Shown in pieces: positions 19,030 to 35,996 of a stretch of 41,810 nucleotides of DNA (position 1 is its first letter; every line of letters starts with the position of its first letter). The stretch is taken from NCBI GenBank assembly GCA_903859215.1, contig CAIOLW010000103.1:1-41810 (forward strand), given 5' to 3'. The DNA is from an uncultured bacterium (GTDB lineage: Bacteria > Krumholzibacteriota > Krumholzibacteriia > LZORAL124-64-63). The notes below the pieces were generated by a model, which saw only the letters and a list, made by a program, of their open reading frames with translations, was not told the DNA's origin and did not search any database. Position numbers and translations under genes: made by a program.

Positions 19030-22000
19030 ATGCCGCTGCCGCTTCCCGCCACACGACAGGCCAGGCGCCGCGCGCCCGGACGCCAGGCTTGTCGCGCCGC
19101 GCAGGCCGGCCGCCTCGACGGATCTCGTCGCGTCCTTCCGGTGTCCATCGCCGCGTCTCTCCTGGCGCTCATGGTCGCGTGGATGCTCCTGGTGGCTGCT
19201 GTGGCGCCGGCGCGGGGCGCCGACCTGCCCGGCGTGATCGATGCGGACGGCGACGGCGTCGAGGACATCCTGGCGCAGTGGCGGCGCGGCGAGCGCACGT
19301 GGGACGACCTGCGCGGCGTCTCCGTGGCGGCGGCGGACGCGGCGCGCGTGGAGGCGGCGAAGGCGGCCGATGAGGCCGGGCCGCTCGCGGACGGCGGGCT
19401 GTCGGCGGCGGTGAAAGCGGCCGGCGACGGGACCGGTCCGTGGGCCGGCGGGCGCCTGCGCCTGCTCAGCCTCGGCGCCGGTCCGGCGGCGACCGACTGC
19501 GCGGTCAAGGCCGCCGCCGGCGTGGGCACCTGCCGCGAACTTTTCGCCACCGCGCGATTCGGGGGCGTCGCTGTCCTGGACGTCGACCAGGCCGGGCTGC
19601 GCGCGCTGCTCGACGCGCCGCCGCCGGGGCGGCTGGTTCTGGACCGCGACGGTGTGCCCGCGCTCGACCTCAGCCGGCGCGCGATCGGTGTCCCGCGCAT
19701 GGAGACCGGCGCCTGGCGGCTGGGCGATGACGGTTCGTTCTCGCTGGCCATCCTCGACTCCGGTTGCGACACCGCGCACAACGACCTCGGCGATCCCACC
19801 GACGACAACGTGGACGGCCCGCCGCCGTTCGTCGGCGATGCAGCCGACTGGTACCCGGCCGAGAACGGCTGGCCGCTGTTCGAGGGCTACAAGGTGATCG
19901 GCTGGCACGACGTCACCGACGACTTTCCGTTCGCCGCCGGGCCCTGGGACTACCACCACCACGGGACGGCGCTGGCCTCGGTCGCCGCCGGTCGCGGCGT
20001 CGTCTCGAGCGCCTACCGCGGCGTCGCGCCGGCGGCGCGCCTGGTCATCGTGAAGTACTACGACTTCGACCTGACGTGGCACGCATGGGCCGGCGATTTC
20101 CTCGCGGCCTGTTCGTGGCTGCTCGACCGGCGGCAGGAACTCCGCGTGGGCCCGGTCCTCATGGCCGTCAACTGGGACGCCGACCTGGGCATCGCCGCGG
20201 CCGTCGACGAACTCGCCGCCGCGGGACTGACGCCGGTCGCGGCGATGGGCAACTACGGCACCGGCGGCGGCGGCCCGGGCTGGCCGGCCCGCCTGCGCAG
20301 TGCGCTGACCGTGGGCGCGGTCAACGACGCCGGCGCGGTGGCCGCGTTCAGCGGGCGGGGCGGCGCCGTCCCGGGCAAGCCCGACCTCGTCGCGCCCGGC
20401 GGCGGGCTGCTGCCTGACGCGGGCCGCATTGACTGCGCCGACAACGAGCCCAACGACACCTACAGCGGGCGCTGGGGCACGAGCCTGGCCGCCGCGCATG
20501 CCGCCGGCGCGCTCCACCTGCTGGACGAGGCGCTGGGCGAGCAGGCGGTGCACCTGCCGGCCGACGCGACGTCCGTGCGCACGCGCCTGGCGGTGCTGCG
20601 GCTCACGGCCGCGCCGGTGACGGCCGTCGAGACGGCCGACGGCCTGGGCACAACCGCGCTGCCGGCCGGCACGGCGCCGCGCGAGGATCGCGGCTGGGGG
20701 CTGCTGCGCGTGGATGCCGCCGCGCAGGCGCTGCTGGTGCCGCTCCGCCCCGGCGTCGACCAGACCGATTCCTTGCTGACCAACGGGCGGCAGCCGGTCG
20801 TGGCGCGGCGGCTGGACCTGCAGCGCGGTGTGCGCTACCTGCTCGAGGTCCTGCCGTCGCCGGGCGTCGACGTCGAGCTTGTCGTGGGCGACCCGCGCGA
20901 CCTGGACGACGACCCGTCGGGCGCGAAAGTCGTCCGCGTCAACCAGGGGGGCGTCGGCGTCTCGGAGTTCACGTACGTGACGGCGGGCACCGACAGTTGG
21001 CGCCTGCTGGCGGCCAAGCGGTTGTCCGGCAACGGCGCGGTGGTGCTGCGCGTGCGCGAAGCCTCTGCGTGGTCGCAGCAGGGCGCCACGCGGCAGTTGC
21101 CGGGCGCCGTGACGGGACAACCCAATGCGGGTTCGCTCGCGGGGTTCAGCGGCACGTCGTTCGTCGTGCCGTCGCTGGTGGTGGCTGATCCGGTGGCGCG
21201 CTCGGTGAACGTGCTCGCCGCCGACGGCACGCACCGCACGGGCTGGCCCGTGTTCGTCTTCCCGCATCCCTCCGCGCAGGGCGGGCTGAACCAGCCGCTG
21301 CTCTGGGACCTTGACGGCGTGGCGGGCGACGAGATCGTCGTCAGTTCGGCGTACGGCAGCGTCTACTTCTTCACGGCCGCCGGCGCCGTGCAGACGGTGA
21401 ACCTGGCGCTCAACCGCGCGCTGACGGCGCCGGTCGGCTACGCGACGGCCGCCGGGCAGCGACGCGTGCTGGTGGTCGACGCCGTCGGCAACGCCTACGC
21501 CTGGCGGCAGGGCCCGGTGCAGGTGGCGTCCGCCGCGCTCGGCCACCTGTCGCCGCTCGCGCCGGCGGTCGGCGTGCTCGCGAACGGCGGCGCCGAGTCG
21601 ATCGTCGTCGCCTTTGCCGACGGCCGGGTCACGGCGCTGGATGCCCAACTGTCGACGCTGCCGGGCTGGCCGCGCGACCTGGGCGGCACCCCGGCCGCCG
21701 CACCCGTCCTGTGCGACCTCGACCGCGACGGCAGCCACGAGGTCGTCATCCCGGTGCTCGTGGGACAGCCGGCCACGCTCGTGTTCCGCGTGCTGGACGG
21801 CAACGGCGCGCCCGGCCTCGGTGACGGCGCCACGGCGCCCGCGCCGACCGGCGGCGGCTGGCTCGCGGTCTCGGCGGCCGCCGTCTGCGGCCGGCCGGAC
21901 ACCGGCGAACTGCGCGTGGCCGTGACGGGCCTGGCGACGAACAGCCAGGGCGGGCAGGGCGCGGCGTGGACGCTGGCCGAGGCCTGGCTGGGGCTGGACG

Positions 22001-22758
22001 GCCTCGCGGGTTCGCGCGTGGTGCCGGGCCTCGAAGTGCGCGCAACCAGCGACCTGGGGGAACTCAGCCTGACCGCGCTTCTGTTCGGGCCGCCGCTGGC
22101 CTGGAACCACCGGGGCGGGTGGGGGACCGACCCCGCCACGCTCGTGCACCTGTCATGGAGCGAGGTGCTCTACGGCCTGACCGCGATTCCCGGTTCGACC
22201 AGCGCCTGGTTCACGGACACGGGCGATGTCGATGCGCTGGCAGTGCGCCGGCCGACGTTGCCCGGCGGGCAGGTCGCCGCGCCGTTGACGGCGGTGGGCG
22301 CCGCGCTCGCGCGCATCAGCTCCGACGTGCTGCTGCGGCTCGACGCGCAGGACCGCCAGGTCACGATCACGCCGCTGGCCGACCTGTACGCCTCGTCGCC
22401 ACTGTGGGCCGGCGCGCGCGGGGACGGTCGCAACACCGGCGCCTATCCCCTGCAGTACGGGGCCGCGGCCGCGCCGACGGTCACGGCGGCGGCAGGCAAC
22501 CTGGCGGTGCAGCCCAACCCCGGCACCGGCGGCTTCCGTTTCCGCCTGTCCGGGCCGGCCGCCGGACCGGTTGCTTTCGAGGTCTACGACCTGCGCGGCA
22601 GGCGCGTCGCGAGCTTCGGCGGGCCCGCCGAAGGCGACCGCGAAGCCGGCTGGGACGGGCGCGACAGGGACGGGCGCCCGCTCCCGGCGGGGACCTACCT
22701 GGTGCGTGCGCGGGGCGTCGCGGGCGAGCCGTCCACCCGCCTGACCATCGTGCGCTGA
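19030..22758 (+). CDS. Secreted subtilisin-like serine protease with propeller-like repeats and a FlgD-like C-terminal domain (1242 aa)
   Basis: The ATG at 19030 has GGGAG seven bases upstream. A basic N-terminus leads to a hydrophobic signal segment (37-60) and ARGA cleavage site. DADGDGVED (71-79) looks like a calcium-binding loop. The S8 catalytic triad is D243 (ILDSGCD), H311 (HHHGTALAS) and S485 (GTSLAAAHAAG), with oxyanion Asn408 (MGNYG). The usual GTSMAAP proline is Ala. Residues of about 690-1130 hold FG-GAP or propeller-like strands, such as LDGVAGDEIVVSS and LDRDGSHEVVIP. Residues 1160-1242 form a FlgD-like Ig domain ending LPAGTYLVRARG, a type found at the C-termini of secreted FCB-group proteins. 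Likely an extracellular or surface protease; the substrate is unknown. There is no partner inhibitor nearby. Confidence 0.88.
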   Translation: MPLPLPATRQARRRAPGRQACRAAQAGRLDGSRRVLPVSIAASLLALMVAWMLLVAAVAPARGADLPGVIDADGDGVEDILAQWRRGERTWDDLRGVSVAAADAARVEAAKAADEAGPLADGGLSAAVKAAGDGTGPWAGGRLRLLSLGAGPAATDCAVKAAAGVGTCRELFATARFGGVAVLDVDQAGLRALLDAPPPGRLVLDRDGVPALDLSRRAIGVPRMETGAWRLGDDGSFSLAILDSGCDTAHNDLGDPTDDNVDGPPPFVGDAADWYPAENGWPLFEGYKVIGWHDVTDDFPFAAGPWDYHHHGTALASVAAGRGVVSSAYRGVAPAARLVIVKYYDFDLTWHAWAGDFLAACSWLLDRRQELRVGPVLMAVNWDADLGIAAAVDELAAAGLTPVAAMGNYGTGGGGPGWPARLRSALTVGAVNDAGAVAAFSGRGGAVPGKPDLVAPGGGLLPDAGRIDCADNEPNDTYSGRWGTSLAAAHAAGALHLLDEALGEQAVHLPADATSVRTRLAVLRLTAAPVTAVETADGLGTTALPAGTAPREDRGWGLLRVDAAAQALLVPLRPGVDQTDSLLTNGRQPVVARRLDLQRGVRYLLEVLPSPGVDVELVVGDPRDLDDDPSGAKVVRVNQGGVGVSEFTYVTAGTDSWRLLAAKRLSGNGAVVLRVREASAWSQQGATRQLPGAVTGQPNAGSLAGFSGTSFVVPSLVVADPVARSVNVLAADGTHRTGWPVFVFPHPSAQGGLNQPLLWDLDGVAGDEIVVSSAYGSVYFFTAAGAVQTVNLALNRALTAPVGYATAAGQRRVLVVDAVGNAYAWRQGPVQVASAALGHLSPLAPAVGVLANGGAESIVVAFADGRVTALDAQLSTLPGWPRDLGGTPAAAPVLCDLDRDGSHEVVIPVLVGQPATLVFRVLDGNGAPGLGDGATAPAPTGGGWLAVSAAAVCGRPDTGELRVAVTGLATNSQGGQGAAWTLAEAWLGLDGLAGSRVVPGLEVRATSDLGELSLTALLFGPPLAWNHRGGWGTDPATLVHLSWSEVLYGLTAIPGSTSAWFTDTGDVDALAVRRPTLPGGQVAAPLTAVGAALARISSDVLLRLDAQDRQVTITPLADLYASSPLWAGARGDGRNTGAYPLQYGAAAAPTVTAAAGNLAVQPNPGTGGFRFRLSGPAAGPVAFEVYDLRGRRVASFGGPAEGDREAGWDGRDRDGRPLPAGTYLVRARGVAGEPSTRLTIVR

Positions 22759-22809
22759 CCCCCGGTTTTGCTGGTGGGCGCGTCGCGGACTGCATGATAT
22801 GTTTCGCGG

Positions 22810-25800
22810 ATGGAAAACAACGATCCGCGCTCCGCTCTGAACTACTGGCAATCCCTGGCCGCGGCCGAGCGGGCGCTCGCCGGGCTGGATTTCGCCGCCG
22901 CCGAAACCGCCTGGCTGACCGCCGTCGACACGCGGGAACAGTCGTCCGGCCGCGTCTTCTTCACCGAACGCCTGGCCGACGGCATGGCACGCCTGTGGCA
23001 GCGCGGGGCGGCGCGCCCCGGACGCTGGGAACGTCACGCCGGGCAGTTCCGCGCGCAGTTCATGGCTGCCGCCGAGAAGATCGTTCGCGAGGGCGTGCGC
23101 GTCGCCGAGCTGCGGCCCGAAGATGACGCGGACCGCAACCAGCCCATCCTCGAGAAGGCCCTGTTCCTGGTCGCGCGCAGCCGCGTCTTCAGCGAGGAGC
23201 CGGCCTCGGCGGTGCCGCTGCTCAAGGGCCTGTTCCGCACCGCCAGCCGCACCGGCCGTCCCTTCGACCTGAACCTGGTGCGCCACGACATCCCGTTGAC
23301 CGAGGAAGACCGCCTGTGGATGGCGCGCAAGGGCGGCGAACTGCTCGAGTCGTTCGTCGAGCAGGGCGTGCTGCGCCTGGGCTCGCCCGAGTCGCAGGAG
23401 TGGGCCCAGGTCTTCCTGCAGTTGCTGCAGCCGCGGTACTTCGGGTCGGCCGGGCGGATGGAGGAGGAGCGGTGCTGGCTCGAGGCGATCACGGCCGATC
23501 GCCTGCTCGGCCGCGCCTCGGCGAGCGTCGAACTCTACCGTGCGTTCCTGCGCGTGTGTCCCGGCCCGGCGCCGCGCGCGAGCGAGGCGCGCGTGCGCCT
23601 GCTCGAACTGCTCGGCAACACGGACCGCGTGCACTTCCCGGTGCCACGCTACGACGAGGCCCTCGGCGCGATGCAGTCGGCCGGCCTCGAGCAGGGTTCC
23701 GAACTGGCGCCGCGCTTCGAGCGCGCGATCGAACGCATCGAGTACCGCCGGCCCGAGGGCGGGCCGCTGCCCGAACACAACCTGGCCTGGGCCTCGGTCG
23801 CGGTGGAAGCCGACGGCCGTGTCGCCGCCGCGTTCTGGTGGGGCGATCAGCCGCGCGACCTCGCCTTCTGGCGACCCGGCGAAGAGGCTGCGGCCATCGA
23901 CGCCTTCCTGGCGCCGTGCGCCGGCCGCATCGTCGCCGCCGACGAACTCGTCGCGCAGGCCATCGGCATGTCTTGGGAACACGATCCCGCGCCGTGGCCG
24001 GCCGTCGACATCCTGACGGCCGTGCTCGAGAGCCGGTTGCCGGGCGCGGGCGCCGAGCGCGGCGCGCTGGTGCGCATCGCGCTGGCCGAGACACAAGCCT
24101 GGCGCACGGGCTGGGACCCGTCTCTGGGTCATCCGCTGCTCGAACCGCCGCGCCGCGCTTCGCTGGGCGAGGCGTGGCCGCAGGGGCCGGCCGCCGGCGC
24201 GGTGCTCGGGGGGCTGCTCTGGCTGGCCGTGCGCAGCCGCCTGCATGCGGCCGACCCGGCGCTGCGCGCGGGCGTGTCCGCGATGGCGCGCCGCGGCGAC
24301 AAGGTGAGCCGCTTCCTCTACGCGTTCGTCGGCCTCGGCGACGACGCCGGCCGCGCGATGGACGAGGCGTTCGAGCCATGGACGCTGCCCTTGCTCTGGA
24401 CGCGCCCGGACCCGTATGGCTGGTCGTTGACCGTCGCGCGCGCCGCCGCGCCCGAGGCGGGCCCGGACGAGATCGCCGCGGCGCCCGAGCTGGGCCGCAG
24501 TGACCTTGCCATCATCGCGACCGGCAACGCGCCGGCCGTGCTCGCCGCCTGGGGCGAGGGACGGCAGAAGTGGCGCGTGGTGCTGGACCGCTTCGAGCGG
24601 CTCGAGGCGCTCGGCCGCGTCGCCGGCGGGGTCGTCGGTCCCATCACGCTGATCCCCGCGAGCGGCGCCGTGCACGACCTCGACGCGGCGCTGTCGCTGC
24701 TCGAGGACCTGCTCGGCCATCGCGGCCCCGGCCGCGACGCGCTGCTGCCGCTCATGCACTGGACGCGCCTGGTCGAGACGCACAACGGCGACCTGCTCGA
24801 CTTCCGCGAGGTGCGCCCGCGCGCGCACGGCGCGGTGCCGCTCTACGACCGCTACGCGACGCTCGTGGCGGACATTCCGTGCGAAGCGCCGAGCCTGGAC
24901 GGCGCCGGGCGCTCGTGGGCCGCGCAGTTCAGCCAGCGCGTGCGCAAGGCCGGCCTGGTGGCCGGTTCGGTCGAGCACCTGGGGGCCGACGCCGGGCGGC
25001 TCGACGCGCTGTGGGGCGTGTTCGAGGGCAGTGACGCGTCGTGGGTTTTCCTCGACAGCGCCGCCGTCCACTGGGACCTGCTGCGGCGCGACGACATCCA
25101 GATTCGCGCCCTCCACGCCCTGCTGCACACGCGCGGCGGGCGCCATCTCTCGCTGTTGACCGGCGCCGTGTGGCTGCGCAGCGAACTGGAGGAGATCCTC
25201 GGCACGTGGCTCAGCGTGTTCGGCGCACCGTACTGCGCCGCGCTGGCGGACGCGCGCCCGCCGCGGCTGCGGCTGGTCGACCGCGGCGCCGTGCCCGACG
25301 CGCGGCTGCTCATCGCCGAGGCGATGGCTGCGCAGGCTGCGTGGACCGAGCGCGTCGCCGAGTCCGAGGGACAGGTCACCGTCATGGTGCCGGCCGACGG
25401 CGAGGCAGGCTCGTTCTGGTCGCAGGCGCAGGCCGGCCTCGTGGCCGTGGCCGGCCCGCGCTGGCGCTTCCTGGAGGCGACACAGCCGGCCGGACCGGGG
25501 CACGGTGGTCCGCTCGTGGTGCCGGCGTTGAGCAGCCTGCAGGGCAGCGGCGTGCCGGTGGCGGCGGGTGACGATCGCCAGGACTGGCTCGACGCCGACA
25601 CGGAGCGCCGGACGTACCTGGCGTGGCGCGCGCGCCTGTGCGCGCTGGAGGTTGCCGCGCGACTGGCGGGGCCGTGGAGCGGCGTGGACATCCTCGACAC
25701 GCGCTGGTGGCGATTGCTGCGCTCGCGCGCGGTCGGCCACGACACCGCCGAGCCGGGCGGCTGGAACGGCGCGCGCGCCGCGGCGCTCGCGGCGGACGGC

Positions 25801-28800
25801 GCCTGTCGCACGTTCGACCTGCCGGGCTTCGCGTCCGGCGACACGGAAACGGCGTGCGGGCGCTTCCTGCCCGTGGCCCGCCAGTGGGCGGGAACGAACG
25901 CGGCGTCGATCGCGATGAATGACGTGCTCCGGTCCGGCGACGCCGGCATGCCGGCGGGCGTCAACCTGCTGGTCGGCGACCTCGACCCGGTGTGGTCGGC
26001 GGTGGCCGTGCGCACGCGCCTGGCGTGGGAGCGCGGCGAGCTCGACCACTGGGTGCTGCTGGTCAGCGACCATTGTCCGCCCGAGGCGGCCGCGCTGGTG
26101 GCCGCCGGCGGCGTCGACGGCGTGTCCACCTGGGGCGGCGAAGGCGTTGCGGAATTCCCGTCGCCCCTGGTCCGCGTCGTGCCCGCCGATTTCAACGACC
26201 CGCAATTGCGCGCCTTCCTGGCTGCGCACCCGCCGCGCACCGTCGTGGCGACCGGCCTCTACGAGTGGCTCCCGGCGCGCGACCGCGAGGCGCAGGAGTC
26301 GGCGCTCGCCCTGCGCGCGCTGCTCGATGCGCGCGCGCACGGGGTGATCCTGCAGACGGTCTCGATGCCGGCGCCGTGGATCCGCTTCGTCGAACGCGTG
26401 TGCGGCGCGCGGCTGATGGGCGCGTCGTCCGGCGCCGCGGTGCACGACGACGCTGCCGCGGCTGCCGACCTGCAGGCGGGACCGCCGCCCGTTTCCCTGT
26501 GGCCAGGCGTCGGCGCCGCCGATCGTCCCGGCGCGGTCATCCGCCGCTTCCAGGGCCTGCTCGCGCGCCTGCGCCCGGTGATGGTCGAGCGCGCCGGGCA
26601 CGGCGACGGCGCCGAGCACGAACCGACCCCGCCGCCGGGGCGCCAGCTGTTGCCCCTGGACTGGCTCGCGGCGCTCGGTGGCCTGGCCGCATCCGATGTC
26701 GAGCATGGCGCCGGCCTGCTGCGCTGGGTGGCTCGCTTGGCGGGCGACCCGCTGTCGGCCGCCTCGGTGCGCGCGCCCGGCACGCGCCGCGTGAACGAGA
26801 GCCACGCCCTGATCCTGCCCCGGCGCCAGGCCGAGGTCCTGCGCCGCATGGAGCAACTCGGCGGCGCCTTGACCGCCATCCTGCCGCACTGGCTGGCCAA
26901 TGCCCCGGTGGGCGGCCTCACGTGGATCGACCAGGAGCATCCGCCGGTGCGCATCGCGCCGGAGGACCTTGCTGCGGTCGACACGTTGCTGGTCATGGTG
27001 GGCGCCGGCGCCTTCGGTGACGTCGGATTGACGTACACCTGCCCGCGCGGCCTGCTTTACAGCACGCGTCGGATGGTCGGGATCTCGCGTCCCGCCGAGC
27101 AGGTGCTCTCGGCGTTGCAGGACGGGCTCGCGATCTTCGCGTCGCGCCTTGACGAAGTGCTGGGCGCCGCCATCCCCACCAGTGACGGCCTGCTCGTGCA
27201 GACGGGCGTCAGCGAGCTGCAGGCCGAGGAACGGCATTTCCTCGCCCTCGGCTCGGCGCTGGGTTACTGGCGCTGGCTGGGACCGGCCTGTCCCGGGGCG
27301 ATGCACCTGGTGGACCTGCTCAGCCTGGCCGACAGCCCCACGGTGCGCGCCGGCGATGACGGCTGGCAGTTGCTGGGCGCGCTGGTGGCGAACCGTTTCG
27401 CCGCCGCGGGCCTGGTCGACGGCGACGGCGCCGGCGCGGTTGCGCGCGGCGGCGCGGCGGCCGGGCAGAAGCGGTCCTTGACGAGCATCCTCAAGGGCGA
27501 GGGCGCCGGCCAGACGCTGGAGGCCGTCGTGGCCCGCGTCGCCGACGTGGCGGGGCTCGACGACGAGCAGCGCTTCCTGGTGCTGCGCGGCACGCTCGGT
27601 TCCGGACGGCACGAGGCGCTCGTGCGCGGACTCGAGGTGGCGCAGCGCGAGGGCGACGACCCCGGCGAGCTGACGATCTACTGCCCGGACCCGGGCACGG
27701 CCGCGTTCATCGCGCGCGAGTGCCTGCAGCGCGGCTTCCGCGGGCCGCTCGACGTGCGGGTGCCGGCCCGCGGCAGCGCGCCGGACCCGGGTCGTCCCGG
27801 CGGCGCCGAGGGCGCCGATCCCGCGGGCGCGGTCATCGTGATGTGCGAAGTCCAGCGTTTCGAACCGGAGACGCGCTACCGCATCGCGCAGCTGGGGCGC
27901 GGGCGCCGGCTGATCATGACCGTCGATCCGGCGGCCGCGCTCGAGCCGTGGGAGCACCTCTTCCTGACGACGCCGCGCGCGGACGATATCGTCGACCTGG
28001 GTGTGCAGCGACGGCTGGCGAAGCGGCTGTGGGCCGAGGTCGGGCAGTTGGCGCCGTCAGACCGCGACCCGGGCCAATCGCGCCGCCGCGACAAGGGCCT
28101 GGTCCTGGCCGAGTACGCGGCCAACCTCGACCAGTGCGTCGCGCGCATCGTCGCCGCGCGCGACCAGGAGGAACTCGGACCCGTGCTGCGCGTCGTGGCG
28201 GCGCTGCCGGCCGATCTCGACTACATCGCGACGTCGCTGCAGGACCGCGGCTGGCTGGCCGCCAGCGAGCCGCGCCTGGATTGGCTGCTGCTGCCCGGCC
28301 CGCGCGAACTGCTGGCCGCGGTGGCGGACGCGCTTGCCGCCGAGGGCCTGGCGCCCGCGCGGCACGGCCTGCTGGCCGCTGCTGCGGTCGGCGGCACCGC
28401 AGCCGACCAGTCGGCGTCCCCCGCGCCGGCGCCGGCGCTGCTGCCGCGGTTTGTGGAACCCTCGCTGCGCGAGTCCTGCCGCCAGTGGCAGCAAACCTGG
28501 CCGCTGGCTGTGATGCCCGACCTGGCGTCGTTCGCCGCGGCGGCCGCGGTCTCGCCGTGGGGCCAGGTCGTCTTCGCGCAACCGGAGGCGCGCGAGCGGA
28601 TCGAGGCGGTCCTGGCGGCATGGGGGCGCGCGGCCCCGGCCGGCCTGCTGGAACAACCGCTGTGGCAGGCCTGGTGGCTCCTGACGCTGGGCGACCTGGG
28701 CGAGCAGCCGCTGGCCGGCGCGCGCCCGCTGGCGATCCTCGCCGAGGCGGCCCGCACCGGCGGCGCCTACCAGCCGGCCGGCGTCTACATGTGCCAGGGC

Positions 28801-28902
28801 ACCGAGGAGGCGCGGCGGCACTACGAGGTCCTCGGCCGCCTGACCGACCAGGCGCTCGTCCTGTACCAGGTGCGCTCGCCGCTGCCGGGCGACGCCAACT
28901 GA
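22810..28902 (+). CDS. Very large cytoplasmic protein of unknown function with a degenerate helicase-like P-loop module (2030 aa)
   Basis: I do not recognise this protein. The frame is open for 6.1 kb with high-GC codon use like its neighbours. No signal peptide or membrane helix is seen. Residues 10 to about 300 are helical and rich in LxxxExxLxxxDFxxAExxW-type patterns, resembling tetratricopeptide repeats. About 300-1570 shows mixed alpha/beta segments with many Trp and Arg but no motif I can name. Residues 1585-1735 resemble the front of an SF1 helicase: LDDEQRFLVL (Q-motif-like), RGTLGSGRHEAL (Walker A with Lys to Arg, 1594-1601), CEVQRFEP (motif II, DEAQ to CEVQ, 1679-1686), and GRRLIMTVDPAAAL (motif III-like). 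Since the key Lys and Asp are replaced, ATP hydrolysis is doubtful. The start ATG lacks a ribosome-binding site; TTGCTG at 22768 and CATGAT at 22793 are possible weak promoter elements, which would make the mRNA nearly leaderless. tnaA follows 127 bases later. Confidence 0.8.
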   Translation: MENNDPRSALNYWQSLAAAERALAGLDFAAAETAWLTAVDTREQSSGRVFFTERLADGMARLWQRGAARPGRWERHAGQFRAQFMAAAEKIVREGVRVAELRPEDDADRNQPILEKALFLVARSRVFSEEPASAVPLLKGLFRTASRTGRPFDLNLVRHDIPLTEEDRLWMARKGGELLESFVEQGVLRLGSPESQEWAQVFLQLLQPRYFGSAGRMEEERCWLEAITADRLLGRASASVELYRAFLRVCPGPAPRASEARVRLLELLGNTDRVHFPVPRYDEALGAMQSAGLEQGSELAPRFERAIERIEYRRPEGGPLPEHNLAWASVAVEADGRVAAAFWWGDQPRDLAFWRPGEEAAAIDAFLAPCAGRIVAADELVAQAIGMSWEHDPAPWPAVDILTAVLESRLPGAGAERGALVRIALAETQAWRTGWDPSLGHPLLEPPRRASLGEAWPQGPAAGAVLGGLLWLAVRSRLHAADPALRAGVSAMARRGDKVSRFLYAFVGLGDDAGRAMDEAFEPWTLPLLWTRPDPYGWSLTVARAAAPEAGPDEIAAAPELGRSDLAIIATGNAPAVLAAWGEGRQKWRVVLDRFERLEALGRVAGGVVGPITLIPASGAVHDLDAALSLLEDLLGHRGPGRDALLPLMHWTRLVETHNGDLLDFREVRPRAHGAVPLYDRYATLVADIPCEAPSLDGAGRSWAAQFSQRVRKAGLVAGSVEHLGADAGRLDALWGVFEGSDASWVFLDSAAVHWDLLRRDDIQIRALHALLHTRGGRHLSLLTGAVWLRSELEEILGTWLSVFGAPYCAALADARPPRLRLVDRGAVPDARLLIAEAMAAQAAWTERVAESEGQVTVMVPADGEAGSFWSQAQAGLVAVAGPRWRFLEATQPAGPGHGGPLVVPALSSLQGSGVPVAAGDDRQDWLDADTERRTYLAWRARLCALEVAARLAGPWSGVDILDTRWWRLLRSRAVGHDTAEPGGWNGARAAALAADGACRTFDLPGFASGDTETACGRFLPVARQWAGTNAASIAMNDVLRSGDAGMPAGVNLLVGDLDPVWSAVAVRTRLAWERGELDHWVLLVSDHCPPEAAALVAAGGVDGVSTWGGEGVAEFPSPLVRVVPADFNDPQLRAFLAAHPPRTVVATGLYEWLPARDREAQESALALRALLDARAHGVILQTVSMPAPWIRFVERVCGARLMGASSGAAVHDDAAAAADLQAGPPPVSLWPGVGAADRPGAVIRRFQGLLARLRPVMVERAGHGDGAEHEPTPPPGRQLLPLDWLAALGGLAASDVEHGAGLLRWVARLAGDPLSAASVRAPGTRRVNESHALILPRRQAEVLRRMEQLGGALTAILPHWLANAPVGGLTWIDQEHPPVRIAPEDLAAVDTLLVMVGAGAFGDVGLTYTCPRGLLYSTRRMVGISRPAEQVLSALQDGLAIFASRLDEVLGAAIPTSDGLLVQTGVSELQAEERHFLALGSALGYWRWLGPACPGAMHLVDLLSLADSPTVRAGDDGWQLLGALVANRFAAAGLVDGDGAGAVARGGAAAGQKRSLTSILKGEGAGQTLEAVVARVADVAGLDDEQRFLVLRGTLGSGRHEALVRGLEVAQREGDDPGELTIYCPDPGTAAFIARECLQRGFRGPLDVRVPARGSAPDPGRPGGAEGADPAGAVIVMCEVQRFEPETRYRIAQLGRGRRLIMTVDPAAALEPWEHLFLTTPRADDIVDLGVQRRLAKRLWAEVGQLAPSDRDPGQSRRRDKGLVLAEYAANLDQCVARIVAARDQEELGPVLRVVAALPADLDYIATSLQDRGWLAASEPRLDWLLLPGPRELLAAVADALAAEGLAPARHGLLAAAAVGGTAADQSASPAPAPALLPRFVEPSLRESCRQWQQTWPLAVMPDLASFAAAAAVSPWGQVVFAQPEARERIEAVLAAWGRAAPAGLLEQPLWQAWWLLTLGDLGEQPLAGARPLAILAEAARTGGAYQPAGVYMCQGTEEARRHYEVLGRLTDQALVLYQVRSPLPGDAN

Positions 28903-28909
28903 CGCCGAC

Positions 28910-28941
28910 ACAAGCCATGGCCGCGACGGCGTGCGGCTTGT
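28910..28941 (+). terminator. Nested stem-loop between the 2030-residue gene and tnaA
   Basis: ACAAGCC at 28910-28916 pairs with GGCTTGT at 28935-28941, and GCCG at 28920-28923 pairs with CGGC at 28927-28930 inside it. It starts seven bases after the stop of the large gene. There is no T-run, so termination is uncertain. TTGTCC at 28938 and CATGTT at 28961 (17-bp spacer) could be a weak tnaA promoter. Confidence 0.35.
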
Positions 28942-29029
28942 CCGGCACGGCCGCGTTGACCATGTTCCAGCCGGCGCCGGGCCCGCGGGGCGGCGGCGCG
29001 GACGCGAGCCTCGAGCCAGGGAGCGGGAC

Positions 29030-30430
29030 ATGGACTTCGCCTTCGAGCCCTATCGCATCAAGGTCGTCGAGAAGATCGAGCGCACCAGCCGCGAAGAGCG
29101 CAAGCGCCTGCTGATCGAGGCCGGCTACAACGTCTTCAAGGTGCCGTCGCGCGCCATCTACGTCGACCTGCTCACCGACAGCGGCACCGGCGCGATGAGT
29201 GATGTGCAGTGGGCCGCCCTGATGACCGGCGACGAGGCCTACGCCTGCAGCCGCTCGTTCAAGGACTTCGAGGACACCATCCGCGACATCTTCGGCTACA
29301 AGCACGTCATCCCCACGCACCAGGGTCGCGCCGCCGAGGGCCTGCTCTTCACCGCCGTCGTGAAGCCGGGCCAGGTCGTGCCCAACAACATCCACTTCGA
29401 CACGACCCGCGCCAACGTCGAGCACGTCGGCGGCATCGCGCTCGATTGCGTGGACGACGCGGGGCTCGACCCGCGGCTCGAGGCGCCGTTCAAGGGCGAC
29501 ATGAGCCTGCGCAAGCTGGCGCACGCGTTCGAGAAGTACGGCAAGGACCGCATCCCGTTCGTGATGCTCACCATCACCAACAACAGCGGCGGCGGGCAGC
29601 CGGTCTCGATGGCGAATGCGAAGGCCGTCGGCGCCTTCTGCCGCGAGATGGGCGTCCCGTTGATCTTCGACGCCTGCCGCTTCGCCGAGAACGCGTGGTT
29701 CATCCAGCAGCGCGAGGACGGCTACCGCGACGTCGCCATCAAGGACATCTGCCGCGAGATGTTTGCGCTCGGCAGCGGCTGTACGATGAGCGCCAAGAAG
29801 GACGCGCTGGTGAACATCGGCGGCTTCCTGTGCCTGGACGACGACGACTGGGCGCAGGCGGCAACCAACCTGCTGATCCTGCGCGAGGGATTCCCCACGT
29901 ACGGCGGCCTGGCCGGTCGCGACCTCGCGGCCGTCGCGCAGGGCCTGCGCGAGGTGCTCGACCCCGACTACCTGGCCTATCGCATCGGGCAGGTGGCGCG
30001 GCTGGGCGAACGCCTCGACGAGCTGGGCGTGCCGCACCTGAAGCCGACCGGCGGCCACGCCGTGTACCTGGACGCGCGGCGCATGCTGCCGCACATCCCG
30101 CAGGCGCAGTTCCCCGCGCAGGTGGTGACCGCTGCGCTGTTCGTCGAGGCCGGCGTGCGCGCGGTCGAGATCGGCAGCCTGATGTTCGAGCACCGCGACC
30201 CGGACACGGGCAAGCTCGTGCCGCCCGAGATGGAACTGGTGCGCCTGGCCGTGCCGCGGCGCGTCTACACGCACACGCAGCTCGACTACGTGGCCGACGC
30301 CTGCGCGAAGGTCATGGCGCTGGGCGAGCGCCTGTGCGGCCTTGAAGTCACGTGGGAGCCGCCTTCGCTGCGCCACTTCACGGCGGTCCTGCGGCCGGTG
30401 GGCGGCGGCTCGCTGCTGTCGGGGCAGTAG
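29030..30430 (+). CDS. tnaA: Tryptophanase (tryptophan indole-lyase), 466 aa
   Basis: This PLP enzyme of the beta-eliminating lyase family splits L-tryptophan to indole, pyruvate and ammonia. The family is clear: EPYRIKVVEKIERT, DLLTDSGTGAMSD, GDEAYACSRS, IPTHQGRAAE, GGGQPVSMAN, the PLP lysine K257 in TMSAKKDALVNIGGF, FPTYGGLAGRD. The close relative is tyrosine phenol-lyase. Two positions favour tryptophanase: D124 in HFDTTR (Thr in tyrosine phenol-lyase, Asp in TnaA) and I381 in AVEIGS, where tyrosine phenol-lyase has its substrate-binding Arg. Length agrees with TnaA (471). The ATG follows GGGAGCGGGAC. No TnaC-like leader peptide is seen. A 216-residue unknown protein starts four bases after the stop. 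Confidence 0.88.
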   Translation: MDFAFEPYRIKVVEKIERTSREERKRLLIEAGYNVFKVPSRAIYVDLLTDSGTGAMSDVQWAALMTGDEAYACSRSFKDFEDTIRDIFGYKHVIPTHQGRAAEGLLFTAVVKPGQVVPNNIHFDTTRANVEHVGGIALDCVDDAGLDPRLEAPFKGDMSLRKLAHAFEKYGKDRIPFVMLTITNNSGGGQPVSMANAKAVGAFCREMGVPLIFDACRFAENAWFIQQREDGYRDVAIKDICREMFALGSGCTMSAKKDALVNIGGFLCLDDDDWAQAATNLLILREGFPTYGGLAGRDLAAVAQGLREVLDPDYLAYRIGQVARLGERLDELGVPHLKPTGGHAVYLDARRMLPHIPQAQFPAQVVTAALFVEAGVRAVEIGSLMFEHRDPDTGKLVPPEMELVRLAVPRRVYTHTQLDYVADACAKVMALGERLCGLEVTWEPPSLRHFTAVLRPVGGGSLLSGQ

Positions 30431-30434
30431 CGGC

Positions 30435-31085
30435 ATGCCCGGCGGGCCGCAGGTCGCGTGCGTCGGCTTGGACGCCTCGCTGGCCGACCTGGTCGCCGAC
30501 GGCGTGCACTCCGCGCTGTCGGGGCTCGACATGGCGGCGGACCTGGACCGGCTGGTCGTCTGCGCCGACGACCTGGCCGGCGCCGGCGAGGCCTGGGTCC
30601 AGCCCGCCCGCGGGACGCGCGGCCGCGCCCTGACTCTCTACTGCCACCCCGAAGTGTTCCTGGCTGCGCGCCCGGCCGCCGCGGCGGGGCTCCCGAGCGC
30701 GGTCTGGGAGCAGGCCGGGCCGGCGGCCGCCGAGGCACAGGTCGCGGCCGGCGATTTCTCGCGCTCCCGGGCCGAGGTCTTCCTGTACCACGAGTTGCTG
30801 GTGATCCGCGACCTGCTGCGCCGCGAACTGGACCCTTCGCGCGTGCCGGCAACGCTGGCCGAAGCCTTCGCCGCGGCCTGGTCGATCGGTGTGGACGGCC
30901 GCCTGGCCCGGGCCGGGCTGCCCGGCTACCCGCTGGCCGAGCGCCGCCGGCGGTTCAGTCGCCTGTTCTCGCAGGCGGGGATCTTGATGCCGGAGCACTG
31001 GACCATCTTCCAGGAGATCTGGGACGGGGTGGCCGCGCAGCAGCGGGACGTGGCGCGTCTGGCGCGTCGCCTGCCCCGCCTGTAG
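30435..31085 (+). CDS. Protein of unknown function coupled to tnaA (216 aa)
   Basis: The ATG lies four bases after the tnaA stop, with GGGGCAG overlapping the tnaA end, so the two genes are probably co-translated. The protein is soluble: no signal peptide and no membrane helix. The first 60 residues suggest alternating strand and helix (VACVGLDASLADLV, LDRLVVCADDLAG). The C-terminal half is helical and basic (EVFLYHELLVIRDLLRREL, AERRRRFSRLFSQAG). HELLVIRD superficially recalls a zinc-protease HExxH but lacks the second His, so I do not call it. No family is recognised. A role in tryptophan or indole metabolism would rest on position alone. Confidence 0.7.
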   Translation: MPGGPQVACVGLDASLADLVADGVHSALSGLDMAADLDRLVVCADDLAGAGEAWVQPARGTRGRALTLYCHPEVFLAARPAAAAGLPSAVWEQAGPAAAEAQVAAGDFSRSRAEVFLYHELLVIRDLLRRELDPSRVPATLAEAFAAAWSIGVDGRLARAGLPGYPLAERRRRFSRLFSQAGILMPEHWTIFQEIWDGVAAQQRDVARLARRLPRL

Positions 31086-31313: not shown

Positions 31314-32201
31314 ATGTTCGGTGCCACTCCTCGGCTTCGCCTTCTGGTGATCCTGCTGGCGGGCATATTGGCGATCTGTGTCGTGGCCGTGGTCGGAATC
31401 AAGAAGAAGGAAGCGGTCGATCCGTACCTTCACACCTCCCTGCGGAAGATCGCGACGGGCGACACGCTGAGCCCCGGCTTCCTGTTCGACGTCGACGCTC
31501 CGGCGTTCGAGTTCGTCCACGGCAGCACCGGCGTCGTGCGCGACGGCAACGTCCTGGAGTTCATCGTCGCCAAGGACCTCGAAGGCCTGGCCGCGAAGCT
31601 GCCCGGGACCCGCCTCGGCGTGCGCAAGGTCTTCACGCCCAAGCCGATGCACCTGGTCCTGCAGCGCATCAAGCGCAACGGCGTGGTCGAGGCCGACAGC
31701 CTCGAGATGCCGTACCCGGTCATCCTGCCGCGCCTGCTGTCCGCCTCGCAGGTCGACCTGCAGGCGCCCGGCGCCGCGCTGCCGGAGATCGGCTGGGACA
31801 CGGCCGCCATCCAGGATGCCAAGCTGTCGTTCATGCCGCAGAAGGATGGCGAGTCGTTCCGCCTCGTGAAGAGCGCGTACGAGAAGATCGCCTATGTGCC
31901 GAAGCACGACCTGTCGCCCGAGGCGCGGTTGAACCCGAAGCCCGAGGACTACGCCTGGTACCTGATCGGCAACAAGGGCTCGCTGCAGGTGGTCGACCTG
32001 ACGCCGGGCGGCAATTTCATGCTGCACCTGGTCCACGCGAAGGAACTGCCGCTGATCGGCGCCTTCACGCTGGTCGCGCTGCAGGACGACGCCGCGGCGC
32101 GCCAGGTGGCGCACCCGGAGATCGGCCACGTGGTCGGCATGGCGCGCCTGAACTGGTTCGAGTATGCCAACAGCTACGTGCAGGGCTGCACGATCCACTG
32201 A
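31314..32201 (+). CDS. Membrane-anchored protein of unknown function (295 aa)
   Basis: GGGAGG at 31301-31306 sets the ATG at 31314. One N-terminal membrane helix (residues 8-29, LRLLVILLAGILAICVVAVV) is followed by a Lys-rich KKKE and a 260-residue soluble domain, presumably periplasmic. The domain is rich in beta-strand patterns with scattered charged loops (FLFDVDAPAFEFVHGS, MPYPVILPRLLSASQVDL, DYAWYLIGNKGSLQVVDL). It has no Cys pair, zinc motif or enzymatic signature that I recognise, and a single Cys near the C-terminus (QGCTIH). Downstream is a strong terminator shared with pfkA. It has its own candidate promoter, so it may not belong to the tnaA unit. Confidence 0.75.
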   Translation: MFGATPRLRLLVILLAGILAICVVAVVGIKKKEAVDPYLHTSLRKIATGDTLSPGFLFDVDAPAFEFVHGSTGVVRDGNVLEFIVAKDLEGLAAKLPGTRLGVRKVFTPKPMHLVLQRIKRNGVVEADSLEMPYPVILPRLLSASQVDLQAPGAALPEIGWDTAAIQDAKLSFMPQKDGESFRLVKSAYEKIAYVPKHDLSPEARLNPKPEDYAWYLIGNKGSLQVVDLTPGGNFMLHLVHAKELPLIGAFTLVALQDDAAARQVAHPEIGHVVGMARLNWFEYANSYVQGCTIH

Positions 32202-32284: not shown

Positions 32285-33244
32285 TCAGACGAGCAGTTCC
32301 ATCAGGCGCGAGTCGCGCAGCACCGACTTGGGACCGGCCTTGGTCTTCTTCTCGAGCGGGCTGGTCTGCACCTTGTTGGCGACGACGCCGACCATCAGGC
32401 CGTGCTCGCCCGCGAACAGAAGTTCGGTGGCGTGGTGGCCCAGGCGGCTGGCCAGGATGCGGTCGAAGCCCGACGGCGCGCCGCCGCGCTGCACGTGGCC
32501 CAGCACGACCATGCGCACGTCGCGCTGCAGGCGGGCCTTGATCTCGAACGAAACGTAGGAGGCCTTGCCGGCGCCCTCGGCCACGATGATCAGCGCATGG
32601 TGCTTGCCGCGCTGGTAAGACTCGGAGATGCGGCGGCAGACATCGTCGATCTTCCAGGGCACTTCCGGCAGCAGCACTTCCTCGGCGCCGGTGGCGATGG
32701 CCGTCTGGGCGGCCAGCAGGCCGTACTCGCGCCCCATGACCTCGATGACGAAGATGCGGCCGTGGCTGGTCGCCGTGTCGCGCACCTTGTCCACGGCGTC
32801 GATGGCGATGTTCAGCGCCGTGTCGAAGCCGATGCTGTAGTCGGTGCCGGGGATGTCGTTGTCGATGGTCGCCGGCACGCCGATGACCGGCAGGCCGAAC
32901 TCCTTCTCGAGCTTGGCCGCGCCGCGGAAGCTGCCGTCGCCGCCGATGACGACCATGCCGTCGAGCTTCAGCTTCTTGAGCGTGCGCCCGACCGGCGCGG
33001 CGCCCTCGTCGGTGGCGAACTGGGGGTAGCGGAAGGTGCGCAGGATGGTGCCGCCCTTCTGCAGGATGCCGCTGACCGAGCCCGGGCCCATCGTCTCGTA
33101 GGTGCCGTCGGCCAGCCCGAGCCAGCCCTGCTTGATGCCGATGACCTCGGCCTCGTGACGCCAAGCCGTCCGCACGACGGCGCGCAGCGCCGCGTTCATG
33201 CCCGCCGCGTCGCCGCCGCCGGTCAGGACCCCGATCCGCTTCAT
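32285..33244 (-). CDS. pfkA: ATP-dependent 6-phosphofructokinase PfkA (319 aa)
   Basis: PfkA phosphorylates fructose 6-phosphate in glycolysis. Seen: RIGVLTGGGDAAGMNAALR at the N-terminus, the nucleotide loop VIGGDGSFRGA, the active-site PATIDNDIPGTDYSIGFDTA with the catalytic Asp in TIDND, VEVMGRE-like IEVMGREYG, and GHVQRGGAPSGFDR. A Gly after GGD and a non-Lys residue before TIDND point to the ATP type, not the pyrophosphate type. Length (319) matches E. coli PfkA. The ATG overlaps the rarA stop as ATGA (33241-33244), so the two reverse genes form one unit. Confidence 0.96.
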   Translation of the reverse strand: MKRIGVLTGGGDAAGMNAALRAVVRTAWRHEAEVIGIKQGWLGLADGTYETMGPGSVSGILQKGGTILRTFRYPQFATDEGAAPVGRTLKKLKLDGMVVIGGDGSFRGAAKLEKEFGLPVIGVPATIDNDIPGTDYSIGFDTALNIAIDAVDKVRDTATSHGRIFVIEVMGREYGLLAAQTAIATGAEEVLLPEVPWKIDDVCRRISESYQRGKHHALIIVAEGAGKASYVSFEIKARLQRDVRMVVLGHVQRGGAPSGFDRILASRLGHHATELLFAGEHGLMVGVVANKVQTSPLEKKTKAGPKSVLRDSRLMELLV

Positions 33245-34659
33245 CCGTCGCCTCCCGTTGAGTCGTTGTTGCCGTCGTTGTCGTTGTCGTCCGCCGGGCC
33301 GCCCTGCCGTTGCCGGCGCAGGTGCCACTGGCGGATCCGCTCGATCCGCCCGGCCAGTTCGGCTTCGAAACCGCGCCTGCCGGGGGTGTAGTAGGTGGTG
33401 CTGGCCAGTTCGTCGGGCAGGCAGCCCATGGCGCCCAGGCCGTCCGGCGTGTCGTGAGCGTACACGTACCCGTCGCCGTAGCCCACTTCTTTCATCAGGC
33501 GCGTCGAGGCGTTGCGCAGGTGCATCGGCACCGGCGGGTTGCTGCCCGTGCCCACCTCGGCCGCCGCCGCGCCGTACGCGCGGTAGAGTGCGTTGCTCTT
33601 GGGCGCCAGCGCCAGGTAGACCGCCGCCTGCGCCAGCGCCAGGGCGCCCTCGGGCATGCCCAGCTGGTGGATGGCGTCGCGCGCGGCCAGCGTGCGGCCC
33701 AGGGCGTCGGGGTCGGCCAGGCCGACGTCCTCGCTGGCGAACCGCACCAGCCGCCGCGCCACGTAGAGGGGGTCCTCGCCGGCCTCGAGCATCCGCGCCA
33801 GCCAGTACACCGCCGCCTGCGGGTCGCTGTTGCGCATGCTCTTGTGCAGCGCCGAGATGATGTTGTAGTGCTCCTCGCCGGCCCTGTCGTAGCGCGCGGC
33901 GCGCGTCTGCACCAGGCGGGCGACGGTGGCGGCGTCCAGCGGGCCGGCATCGGCGTCGGGCCCCGCCGCGGCGGCGACGCTCTCGAGCAGGCCCAGCGCG
34001 GCGCGGGCGTCGCCCTCGCTCAGGCGCGCCAGCAGGTCGAGCGCCTCGGGAGCGAAAGCCGGTGAGCCGCCGAGGCCCGGCGCCGCGGTGGCGGCCCGCC
34101 GGAGCAGCGCGCCGACGTCGGCGGCCGACAGCGGGGCCAGCACGAACAGCCGCATGCGCGAGATGAGTGCGCTGTTGACCTCGAAGCTCGGGTTCTCGGT
34201 CGTGGCGCCGATCAGCGTCACGTCGCCGCGCTCGACCCACGGCAGCAGCGCGTCCTGCTGCGCCTTGTTGAAGCGGTGGATCTCGTCCAGGAAGAGGATC
34301 GTGCGGCGGCCGGTGGCGCGCTGCAGGCGGCCCGCCTCGGCCATCACTTCCTTCAGTTCCTTCGAGCCGACCGCGACGGCGCTGAATTCGAGGAACCGTG
34401 CGCCGCCCAGACCGGCCATCAGGCGCGCCAGCGTCGTCTTGCCGCAGCCGGGCGGGCCCCACAGCAGCAGCGACGGCAGCGTGCCGCCGGCCAGAAGGCG
34501 GCGCAGGGGCCCGTCCGGGCCCAGCAGGTGCGGCTGCCCGACGACTTCGTCGAGGTTACGGGGGCGCATGCGGTCGGCCAACGGCGCCGTGGCCGGCGCG
34601 GTCGTGTCCGCGGTGCGCGGGAGCGCGGCGTCGTCGCCGCCGAAGAGATCGCCGTTCAT
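33241..34659 (-). CDS. rarA: Replication-associated recombination protein A, RarA/MgsA (472 aa)
   Basis: RarA is a clamp-loader-like AAA+ ATPase that acts at stalled replication forks. Seen: LADRMRPRNLDEVVGQPHLLG, Walker A GPPGCGKTT (68-76), Walker B ILFLDEIHRF (121-130), LLPWVERGDVTLIGATTENPSFEVN, ALISRMRLFVL, then the C-terminal tetramerisation region with HKSMRNSDPQAAVYWLARML and YAHDTP. The ATG at 34659 with GCAGGAAC upstream is preferred over a longer frame to 34818. The last 20 residues are a low-complexity Asp/Asn/Gly tail coded by a near-repeat of GAC/AAC codons. It overlaps pfkA by four bases. Confidence 0.95.
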   Translation of the reverse strand: MNGDLFGGDDAALPRTADTTAPATAPLADRMRPRNLDEVVGQPHLLGPDGPLRRLLAGGTLPSLLLWGPPGCGKTTLARLMAGLGGARFLEFSAVAVGSKELKEVMAEAGRLQRATGRRTILFLDEIHRFNKAQQDALLPWVERGDVTLIGATTENPSFEVNSALISRMRLFVLAPLSAADVGALLRRAATAAPGLGGSPAFAPEALDLLARLSEGDARAALGLLESVAAAAGPDADAGPLDAATVARLVQTRAARYDRAGEEHYNIISALHKSMRNSDPQAAVYWLARMLEAGEDPLYVARRLVRFASEDVGLADPDALGRTLAARDAIHQLGMPEGALALAQAAVYLALAPKSNALYRAYGAAAAEVGTGSNPPVPMHLRNASTRLMKEVGYGDGYVYAHDTPDGLGAMGCLPDELASTTYYTPGRRGFEAELAGRIERIRQWHLRRQRQGGPADDNDNDGNNDSTGGDG

Positions 34660-34741
34660 GTTCCTGCCTGCGCGCGGCCTGCGTGCGCGTTCACGGGCGG
34701 TCCGGTCCGCTTTCGGACAGCGCTTTCGGGGCGAACCCGGG

Positions 34742-34770
34742 TTGACGGTGCCCGGTCGCGTCGTTAACCT
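34742..34770 (+). promoter_or_regulatory. Candidate promoter of the deoB-cdd-deoA operon
   Basis: TTGACG at 34742-34747 with TAACCT at 34765-34770 (17-bp spacer) lies 40 bases before deoB. A second possible pair is TTAACC at 34764 with TATTCT at 34788 (18-bp spacer). The region lies between divergent rarA and deoB. Confidence 0.4.
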
Positions 34771-34811
34771 GAACCCTCGACACAAGATATTCTTGGTGAA
34801 GGAGACACCGC

Positions 34812-35996
34812 ATGGCAAGGGCCATTCTCATCGTCCTGGACGGGCTCGGCGTCGGGGGCGCCCCCGACGCGGCCGCGTACGGCGACCTCGGCAGCGACAC
34901 CCTGGCGAACATGGCGACGGCCGCCGGCGGGCTGGTGGTGCCGAACCTCGAGGCGCTCGGGCTCGGCAACCTGCACGCCATCAAGGGGGTGGCCCCGGTG
35001 GCGGCCCCGCGTGCGTCATACGGGCGGCTGGTCGAGGTGTCGGCCGGCAAGGACTCGACGACCGGCCACTGGGAGCTGATGGGTGTCGTCACCGAGCACC
35101 CGTTCCCGACGTACCCGGACGGTTTCCCGCAGGACCTGCTCGACGAATTCACCCGCCGCAGCGGCTGGGGCGTCATGGGCAACAAGCCGGCCAGCGGCAC
35201 CGCGATCATCGCCGAGATGGGCGACGAGCACCGCGCCACGCGCAAGCTGATCGTGTACACGTCGGCCGACAGCGTCTTCCAGATCGCGGCGCACGACGAG
35301 GTCTGCGACCTGCAGGAGCTCTACCGGGTGTGCGAGGTCGCGCGCGAGCTGCTGCAGCCGCCGCACCAGGTCAGCCGCGTCATCGCGCGCCCTTTCACCG
35401 GGCCTGCCGGCGCCTACGCGCGCACGCCGATGCGCCACGACTACTCGATCTCCCCGCCGAAGGAACTGCTGCTGCCGGTGCTGCAGCGCGCGGGCGTGCG
35501 CGTGGAATCGATCGGCAAGATCTACGACCTTTACGCGGGCGTGGGCATCGACAAGACATACGCGTCGCGGAACAACGGCGAGGGCATGGCGCGACTGGAC
35601 GAAGTCTATGCCGCCGCCGCCGACGGCACGCTCATCCTGCTGAACCTGGTCGACTTCGACATGCTGTGGGGCCACCGCAACGACCCGGCCGGCATGCGGC
35701 GCGGGCTCGAGGAGTTCGACCGCTGGCTGGGCGGCTTCCTGCCGCGCCTGCGCGCGGGCGACCTGCTGCTGATGACCGCCGACCACGGCAACGACCCGAC
35801 CACGCCGAGCACCGACCACTCGCGCGAGATGGTGCCCATCCTGGCCTGCCTCGGCGGACGCGAGCAGGGGACGGACCTGGGCACGCACGAGGGCTTCATG
35901 GACGTCGCCGCCACGCTCGCCGAATTCTTCGGCGCGGACGGGCCGCGGCGCGGGGCAAGTTTCCTGGCCCGGCTGGGCGACGGGAGTCAGGCATGA
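34812..35996 (+). CDS. deoB: Phosphopentomutase DeoB (394 aa)
   Basis: DeoB converts (deoxy)ribose 1-phosphate to the 5-phosphate, linking nucleoside breakdown to the pentose phosphate pathway and glycolysis. It belongs to the alkaline-phosphatase superfamily with two Mn sites. Seen: ILIVLDGLGVGGAPDA with metal Asp10, GKDSTTGHWELMG with the likely phosphorylated Thr84, RPFTG, SIGKIYDLYAG, NLVDFDMLWGHRND and the metal motifs TADHGNDPTTPSTDHSRE. AAGGAG at 34799-34804 gives ideal spacing to the ATG. The stop overlaps the cdd start (ATGA). Length is typical. Confidence 0.96.
   Translation: MARAILIVLDGLGVGGAPDAAAYGDLGSDTLANMATAAGGLVVPNLEALGLGNLHAIKGVAPVAAPRASYGRLVEVSAGKDSTTGHWELMGVVTEHPFPTYPDGFPQDLLDEFTRRSGWGVMGNKPASGTAIIAEMGDEHRATRKLIVYTSADSVFQIAAHDEVCDLQELYRVCEVARELLQPPHQVSRVIARPFTGPAGAYARTPMRHDYSISPPKELLLPVLQRAGVRVESIGKIYDLYAGVGIDKTYASRNNGEGMARLDEVYAAAADGTLILLNLVDFDMLWGHRNDPAGMRRGLEEFDRWLGGFLPRLRAGDLLLMTADHGNDPTTPSTDHSREMVPILACLGGREQGTDLGTHEGFMDVAATLAEFFGADGPRRGASFLARLGDGSQA

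Follow-up and report, generated by a model that had tools for sequence, protein, structure and literature searches.

A giant core protein in two families of Krumholzibacteriota with a decayed helicase-like C-terminal module and a probable series of further such modules

Introduction

Pseudo-helicases are known mainly from RecC and AddB. The inactivated superfamily 1 (SF1) fold of these proteins reads single-stranded DNA in the groove along which a motor would otherwise move (PMC4824097). Here we describe a protein of 2030 amino acids encoded on contig CAIOLW010000103.1 of an uncultured bacterium of the phylum Krumholzibacteriota, of which we analysed a stretch of 41,810 nucleotides (the window). 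Like the inactivated SF1 domains of AddB and RecC, this giant protein probably has a helicase-like fold; it has lost the motifs of an ATPase and is maintained by selection. However, it has no nuclease-domain match and no adjacent gene for an AddA or RecB partner, it is about twice as long, and it has a helical N-terminus and probably further modules that resemble superfamily 2 (SF2) helicases. By their defining features, it is outside the UvrD, RecQ, DinG and RecC/AddB families, although it may work like the inactive helicase part of RecC or AddB.

Our best explanation, to which we give about an even chance, is that an N-terminus resembling tetratricopeptide repeats (TPRs) is followed by DinG/XPD-like, RecQ-like and UvrD-like modules in series, all of them catalytically dead, and that the whole serves as a non-catalytic DNA-binding scaffold. 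The architecture of serial helicase-derived modules is moderately supported by sequence comparison: one such module is well supported, and there are probably three.

Results

A giant gene under purifying selection

The gene under study is the following.

22810-28902, plus strand: coding sequence of the giant predicted pseudo-helicase (2030 amino acids), identified by its open frame, full-length orthologues and a ratio of nonsynonymous to synonymous substitution rates (dN/dS) of 0.11-0.17

The frame is single and unbroken from an ATG start to a stop codon, and the GC content at its three codon positions (GC1 0.79, GC2 0.55, GC3 0.92, on a contig of 71.5% GC) has the pattern of a coding frame. 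Two orthologues from the same genus gave dN/dS values of 0.11 and 0.17, and full-length homologues of 1975-2246 amino acids occur across the window's GTDB family (f1). An earlier reading made from the sequence only had described one uninterrupted frame of about 6.1 kb, and frame, composition, dN/dS and homologues all agree with it: the gene is real and under purifying selection. An antisense open reading frame (ORF) of 1934 amino acids at 22153-27957 was dismissed as a by-product of high GC, with many stops in the antisense frames of relatives.

To describe the distribution of the gene, we used a sample of 80 species of the phylum, comprising 38 of f1, 4 of f5 (another family in the class of f1) and 38 others. 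The gene is present in 36 of the 38 f1 genomes and in all four f5 genomes, and in none of the 38 others; the two f1 genomes without it are assemblies that are 75-76% complete. It is single-copy and core in both families. Since f1 and f5 form one clade in a PriA tree (support 100/99), one gain of the gene is enough. The gene is vertically inherited.

The protein has no family match in Pfam, NCBIfam, PADLOC or PHROGs, and none in the PDB by sequence. It is a core gene family without a description in any curated library that we searched. It also evolves far faster than the neighbouring genes; beyond the genus, identity within f1 is 25-53% for the giant protein and 67-81% for the TnaA protein encoded next to it. 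A role in defence was considered, and PADLOC and PHROGs returned nothing relevant. Searches of plasmids, phages and viral contigs found no relatives either. The sequence-only reading had seen a candidate for an undescribed system here; a separate, mobile or defence-like system is an idea that a vertically inherited core gene without such relatives does not bear out.

The C-terminal module resembles SF1 helicases without their catalytic residues

The C-terminal part of the protein contains these features.

27532-28899, plus strand: decayed SF1 module of UvrD type, spanning residues from about 1575 to 2030 (hhalign of f1 against PriA and UvrD, and of f5 against UvrD)
27577-27621, plus strand: Walker A equivalent LVLRGTLGSGRHEAL, in which lysine is replaced by arginine (family alignment and hhalign register)
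27832-27861, plus strand: motif II equivalent VIVMCEVQRF, with CEVQ for DEAQ (family alignment)
27907-27936, plus strand: motif III-like stretch RLIMTVDPAA, conserved in f1, with no statistical test of its own

Profile alignments made with hhalign were controlled by column filtering and column shuffles, and z denotes the number of standard deviations above the shuffles; hhalign without filtering and shuffles gave nothing clear. The f1 Walker A region aligned with PriA at an expectation value (E) of 8.6e-5 for the full segment and 1.9e-5 for a short one (z 10.9-13.8, with 13.8 for the short one), such that GVTGSGKTE of PriA pairs with GTLGSGRHE of f1 in the N-terminal half of the module, and the same pairing was obtained with UvrD (z 4.2-5.7). 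The f5 C-terminus aligned with UvrD from 1B to motif II (Prob 74.5, E 2.7e-5, z 11.9), and its last half aligned weakly with UvrD up to motif V (z 3.9). When 2536 local ORFs were searched by hmmsearch with the f1 C-terminal profile, six PriA proteins came directly below the family (E 3e-4 to 3e-3). Weak PDB profile matches fell on the expected motifs, namely the Walker A motifs of HelD and DbpA and motif II of mycobacterial UvrD1. The threshold of PF00580, the curated UvrD hidden Markov model (HMM), was not reached by the giant protein. Taken as sequence evidence, the shuffle-controlled alignments with PriA and UvrD give good support to a real module homologous to the SF1 core. They agree with the earlier assignment of residues ~1585-1735 as SF1-like, with GSGR (residues 1597-1600, window positions 27598-27609) and CEVQ (residues 1679-1682) in the places of Walker A and motif II.

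The replacement of the catalytic residues is family-wide and not a quirk of the window's genome. The sequence-only reading had raised the question of whether the Walker A lysine and the motif II aspartate are always replaced. The lysine is found in none of the 26 homologues that cover the site, and none matches GxGK[ST]. The equivalent is mostly G(S/T)GR in f1, with exceptions that include GSAR, GSCR, GTGA and TTGA, and is GSGR, GGEG or RTGR in f5; arginine is the commonest substitute. For motif II the picture is mixed. DEAQ is gone from all 23 f1 members, which mostly have CE(V/A)QRF and none of which matches DE[x]Q, whereas f5 partly keeps acidic residues (LVDDVD, LLDDYH, AVDGAH and LVEDVH). 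Although the family shares its motif order with the SF1A helicases UvrD, PcrA and Rep, and the f5 C-terminus can be aligned with them as above, it differs from them in these residues and falls below every family model.

The frequent arginine could also be read in another way, namely that GSGR binds ATP without hydrolysing it and that the protein is a nucleotide-responsive switch that changes conformation (a regulatory pseudo-ATPase). Some f5 members do retain S or T after the arginine together with an acidic motif II (G050: GSGRSS, LVDDVD). However, the site is GTGA in G016, TTGA in G024 and GGEGER in G046, and most f1 members have H or another residue for S/T and no motif II aspartate. These variants and losses make a conserved family-wide switch unlikely, and we regard this reading as distinctly improbable.

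The inactivated SF1 fold would be of the same type as that of RecC and AddB (PMC4824097), so the giant protein could be imagined as a functional analogue of RecC/AddB, an accessory component that serves an AddA-like partner in a DNA repair complex with nuclease and helicase. However, no aligned f1 member has a nuclease-domain match at E up to 10, no gene for a helicase or nuclease subunit adjoins the giant gene except rnhB, and in G015 and G049 the AddAB-like genes lie elsewhere, at loci of their own. We consider such a role very improbable.

Helicase-like signatures in the middle region

Upstream of the SF1-like module, a serial arrangement of dead modules would include two regions with signatures of SF2 helicases.

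24127-25809, plus strand: tentative decayed SF2 module of DinG/XPD type, spanning residues from about 440 to 1000 (four-cysteine set of f5, hhalign)
24508-24552 (ATGNAPAV), 24757-24801 (HNGDL), 25042-25074 (LDSAAVH) and 25684-25719 (DTRWW), plus strand: aligned positions in the window's DinG-like region
25807-26679, plus strand: decayed SF2 module of RecQ type, spanning residues from about 1000 to 1290 (f5 against RecQ, z 7.1-9.4)

The sequence-only reading had found no motif to name in the middle of the protein. This was too pessimistic, as DinG-like and RecQ-like signatures are present in divergent homologues. Ahead of their SF1 module, the f5 proteins carry two invariant sets of cysteines. 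The first has the form C-x55-68-C-x3-C-x4-8-C in the four f5 orthologues, and an acidic motif II comes about 32-37 residues after it (two members measured). Most DinG proteins of the same phylum have C-x53-64-C-x4-C-x5-C, followed after 41 residues by DEAH. The f5 segment termed M1 aligned with DinG in the register of the iron-sulphur cysteines at z 4.8, and at z of about 0 with the other four targets. The giant proteins of f5 thus resemble the iron-sulphur helicases DinG and XPD in the order and spacing of four cysteines and in having an acidic motif II about 35 residues further on, but the family as a whole differs from them in having no Walker A motif, a weak profile score and a longer chain, and in the loss of the cysteines in f1. 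The four-cysteine motif is absent from the window's protein and the f1 rows inspected.

Further downstream, f5 aligned with RecQ in the register of motifs Ib, II and III at z 7.1-9.4, and at z of about 0 with UvrD, DinG and RarA; PERLL is paired with PPSLL, and DEAH with PEAD. A PDB profile search returned E. coli RecQ (1oyw) weakly, at E 0.39. The second cysteine set, a CxxC..CxxC ribbon, follows the RecQ-aligned stretch and is retained in the basal f1 members G015, G022, G016 and G005, while both sets are gone from the window's protein. A zinc ribbon is a likeness to RecQ, as is the motif register. However, DEAH is replaced (by PEADRLF and others), the ribbon stands directly after the first lobe, neither HRDC nor RQC was recognised, and the giant protein has no match to a RecQ HMM. 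On these sequence signatures a RecQ-like module in the middle is moderately supported, and a DinG-like module can be proposed tentatively. Most of the chain, rather than one module, would then be of helicase origin. In the window's own protein, the two assignments depend on its collinearity with f5 and with basal f1 members.

The middle could instead be unrelated to helicases and simply fast-evolving, with the helicase-derived part confined to the C-terminal 450 residues and the protein acting as a generic scaffold between proteins that makes no contact with DNA. Within the window's own family the SF1 signal is alone significant, the f1 segments M1 and M2 match no helicase set significantly, and the N-terminus is helical, all of which would be expected if this were so. 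However, the z of 7-9 between the f5 middle and RecQ was obtained with specificity controls, and both cysteine sets are invariant in f5, the first with DinG-like spacing and the second present in basal f1 as well. We consider it unlikely, if a serious contender, that the helicase-derived part ends with the C-terminal module.

Several observations also count directly against a series of dead helicase modules. The DinG z drops to 1.9 with a longer f5 segment, and the M1 profiles of f5 and f1 show no significant match to each other. In the window's own clade the RecQ-like signal reaches z 2.3 and the DinG-like region gives no match in register, neither being significant alone. Curated helicase models found no convincing match among the 22 aligned f1 and 3 f5 members tested. 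An AlphaFold2 model of residues 1560-2030, built on an alignment of five close sequences, had a predicted local distance difference test score (pLDDT) of 36.7, too low for use. The Walker A motif of PriA, an SF2 protein, outscores that of UvrD against the f1 C-terminus, and so the SF1 membership of this half of the f1 module rests on f5. Finally, mutants in which the Walker A lysine is changed to arginine are able to bind ATP, so nucleotide binding is possible in members with GSGR.

Two candidate readings led nowhere. The HNGDL and LDSAAVH motifs were considered as parts of a CHAT, caspase or gingipain domain, and no family match was found. We also looked elsewhere in the phylum for an intact triple helicase, and the RecQ, UvrD and DinG matches belonged to other proteins or to unrelated long frames. 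A 1368-residue protein containing RecQ (L162:2884-6987, minus strand), from a third bacterial family, f4, is unrelated to the giant protein; it has a direct duplication of about 35 residues in which ADKNIALLYVNEAVGKYSVGHLVLPSLHVRVDHNA occurs twice in tandem.

A helical N-terminal region

22810-24129, plus strand: all-helical TPR-like N-terminus, about residues 1-440 (AlphaFold2, Foldseek, TPR_14)

The strongest similarity between f1 and f5 lies in the N-terminal region (E down to 2.5e-14). AlphaFold2 predicted nothing but helices for residues 1-330 (mean pLDDT 58, predicted template modelling score 0.49), the best Foldseek matches of this model are TPR superhelices, none of them significant (E of at least 0.027), and TPR_14 was found in 3 of 22 f1 members (best E 0.039). 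These results are consistent with the TPR-like helices proposed earlier, and we call the region TPR-like tentatively. Large size and a TPR-like N-terminus are also properties of CHAT-TPR proteins, but none of the 22 members matched CHAT at E up to 10, and no other curated family matched, in line with the earlier view of a protein of unknown family.

A possible DNA-gripping scaffold

No module has a consensus nucleotide site, and because none was found in any member, the giant protein is unlikely to be a motor. Intact UvrD and PriA are encoded separately in the same genomes, as are DinG and RecQ in most of the genomes tested. Purifying selection has retained so long a chain across the two families alongside these separate helicases, which argues for a non-catalytic role.

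By analogy with AddB and RecC, we propose that the protein is a scaffold that grips DNA and docks other proteins through its N-terminus. Such a protein would not translocate along DNA. Its retained folds would use their DNA-binding grooves to grasp or recognise DNA that is single-stranded or branched, and partner proteins would dock at the helical N-terminus. In this it would act like AddB and RecC, whose inactivated SF1 folds scan single-stranded DNA for an active partner.

It is also possible, though rather doubtful, that the protein descends from a fused DinG-RecQ-UvrD triple helicase, whose motors were switched off before f1 and f5 split and whose iron-sulphur and zinc sites were then lost stepwise in f1, leaving a DNA-gripping scaffold with multiple grooves. 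We found no description of a DinG-RecQ-UvrD fusion in the literature, which is not proof of absence. The surviving proteins do form a graded series: f5 has metal sites and a partly acidic motif II, basal f1 has zinc only and derived f1 has none. If the serial dead modules are real, two or three of them in one core gene, beside intact helicases, would offer a test of what roles helicase folds can take after the motor is gone.

Neighbouring genes

The giant gene has the following neighbours in the window.

19030-22758, plus strand: subtilase (Peptidase_S8) with a C-terminal FlgD_ig domain, upstream neighbour (Pfam)
28931-30430, plus strand: tryptophanase-type beta-eliminating lyase (tnaA), downstream neighbour (family match)
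30435-31085, plus strand: gene for 216 amino acids, family unassigned, conserved close to the giant gene in both families
31314-32201, plus strand: gene for 295 amino acids, encoding a lipoprotein in relatives and conserved in both families

The giant gene occupies the same slot in both families, with trmD/rnhB upstream and pfkA-rarA (minus strand) downstream. Its constant neighbours in both are the 216-residue gene and the 295-residue lipoprotein gene (best E to f5 of 1e-24 and 5e-35, respectively). Co-occurrence with the 216-residue gene had been raised by the sequence-only reading and is borne out by its position downstream in f1 and f5. The same reading had raised tnaA as a possible companion; this gene adjoins the giant gene in every f1 locus that extends that far and has no match at the f5 loci, so it is not a constant neighbour, and a role as an obligate partner is not supported. 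In f1 it sits between the giant gene and the 216-residue gene, and it scores above the NCBIfam subfamily cut-off and below the equivalog cut-offs of TnaA and tyrosine phenol-lyase.

Most f1 loci and three of the four f5 loci have the subtilase with its FlgD_ig tail on the upstream side of the giant gene; it has no match in the basal f1 loci G015, G024, G022, G016 and G005. In G015 and G024 (loci L046 and L047), rnhB adjoins the giant gene directly, which means that the S8 protease that separates them elsewhere was either lost or never present in that branch.

The 216-residue protein has no Pfam match; its C-terminal half (VDGRL..GLPGY..AERR..FSRLF..AG.L.P.HW.IF..LW) is strongly conserved in f1 and f5. 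Most relatives of the 295-residue protein have a lipobox ending in GC, followed by VDPY; the window's protein and that of G003 lack the cysteine of the lipobox (VVGIKKKE). Further downstream, rarA lies on the minus strand at about 33241-34734. An ORF at 33926-36451 encodes a cytidine deaminase domain at its 3′ end, and its N-terminal extension, antisense over rarA, is probably spurious.

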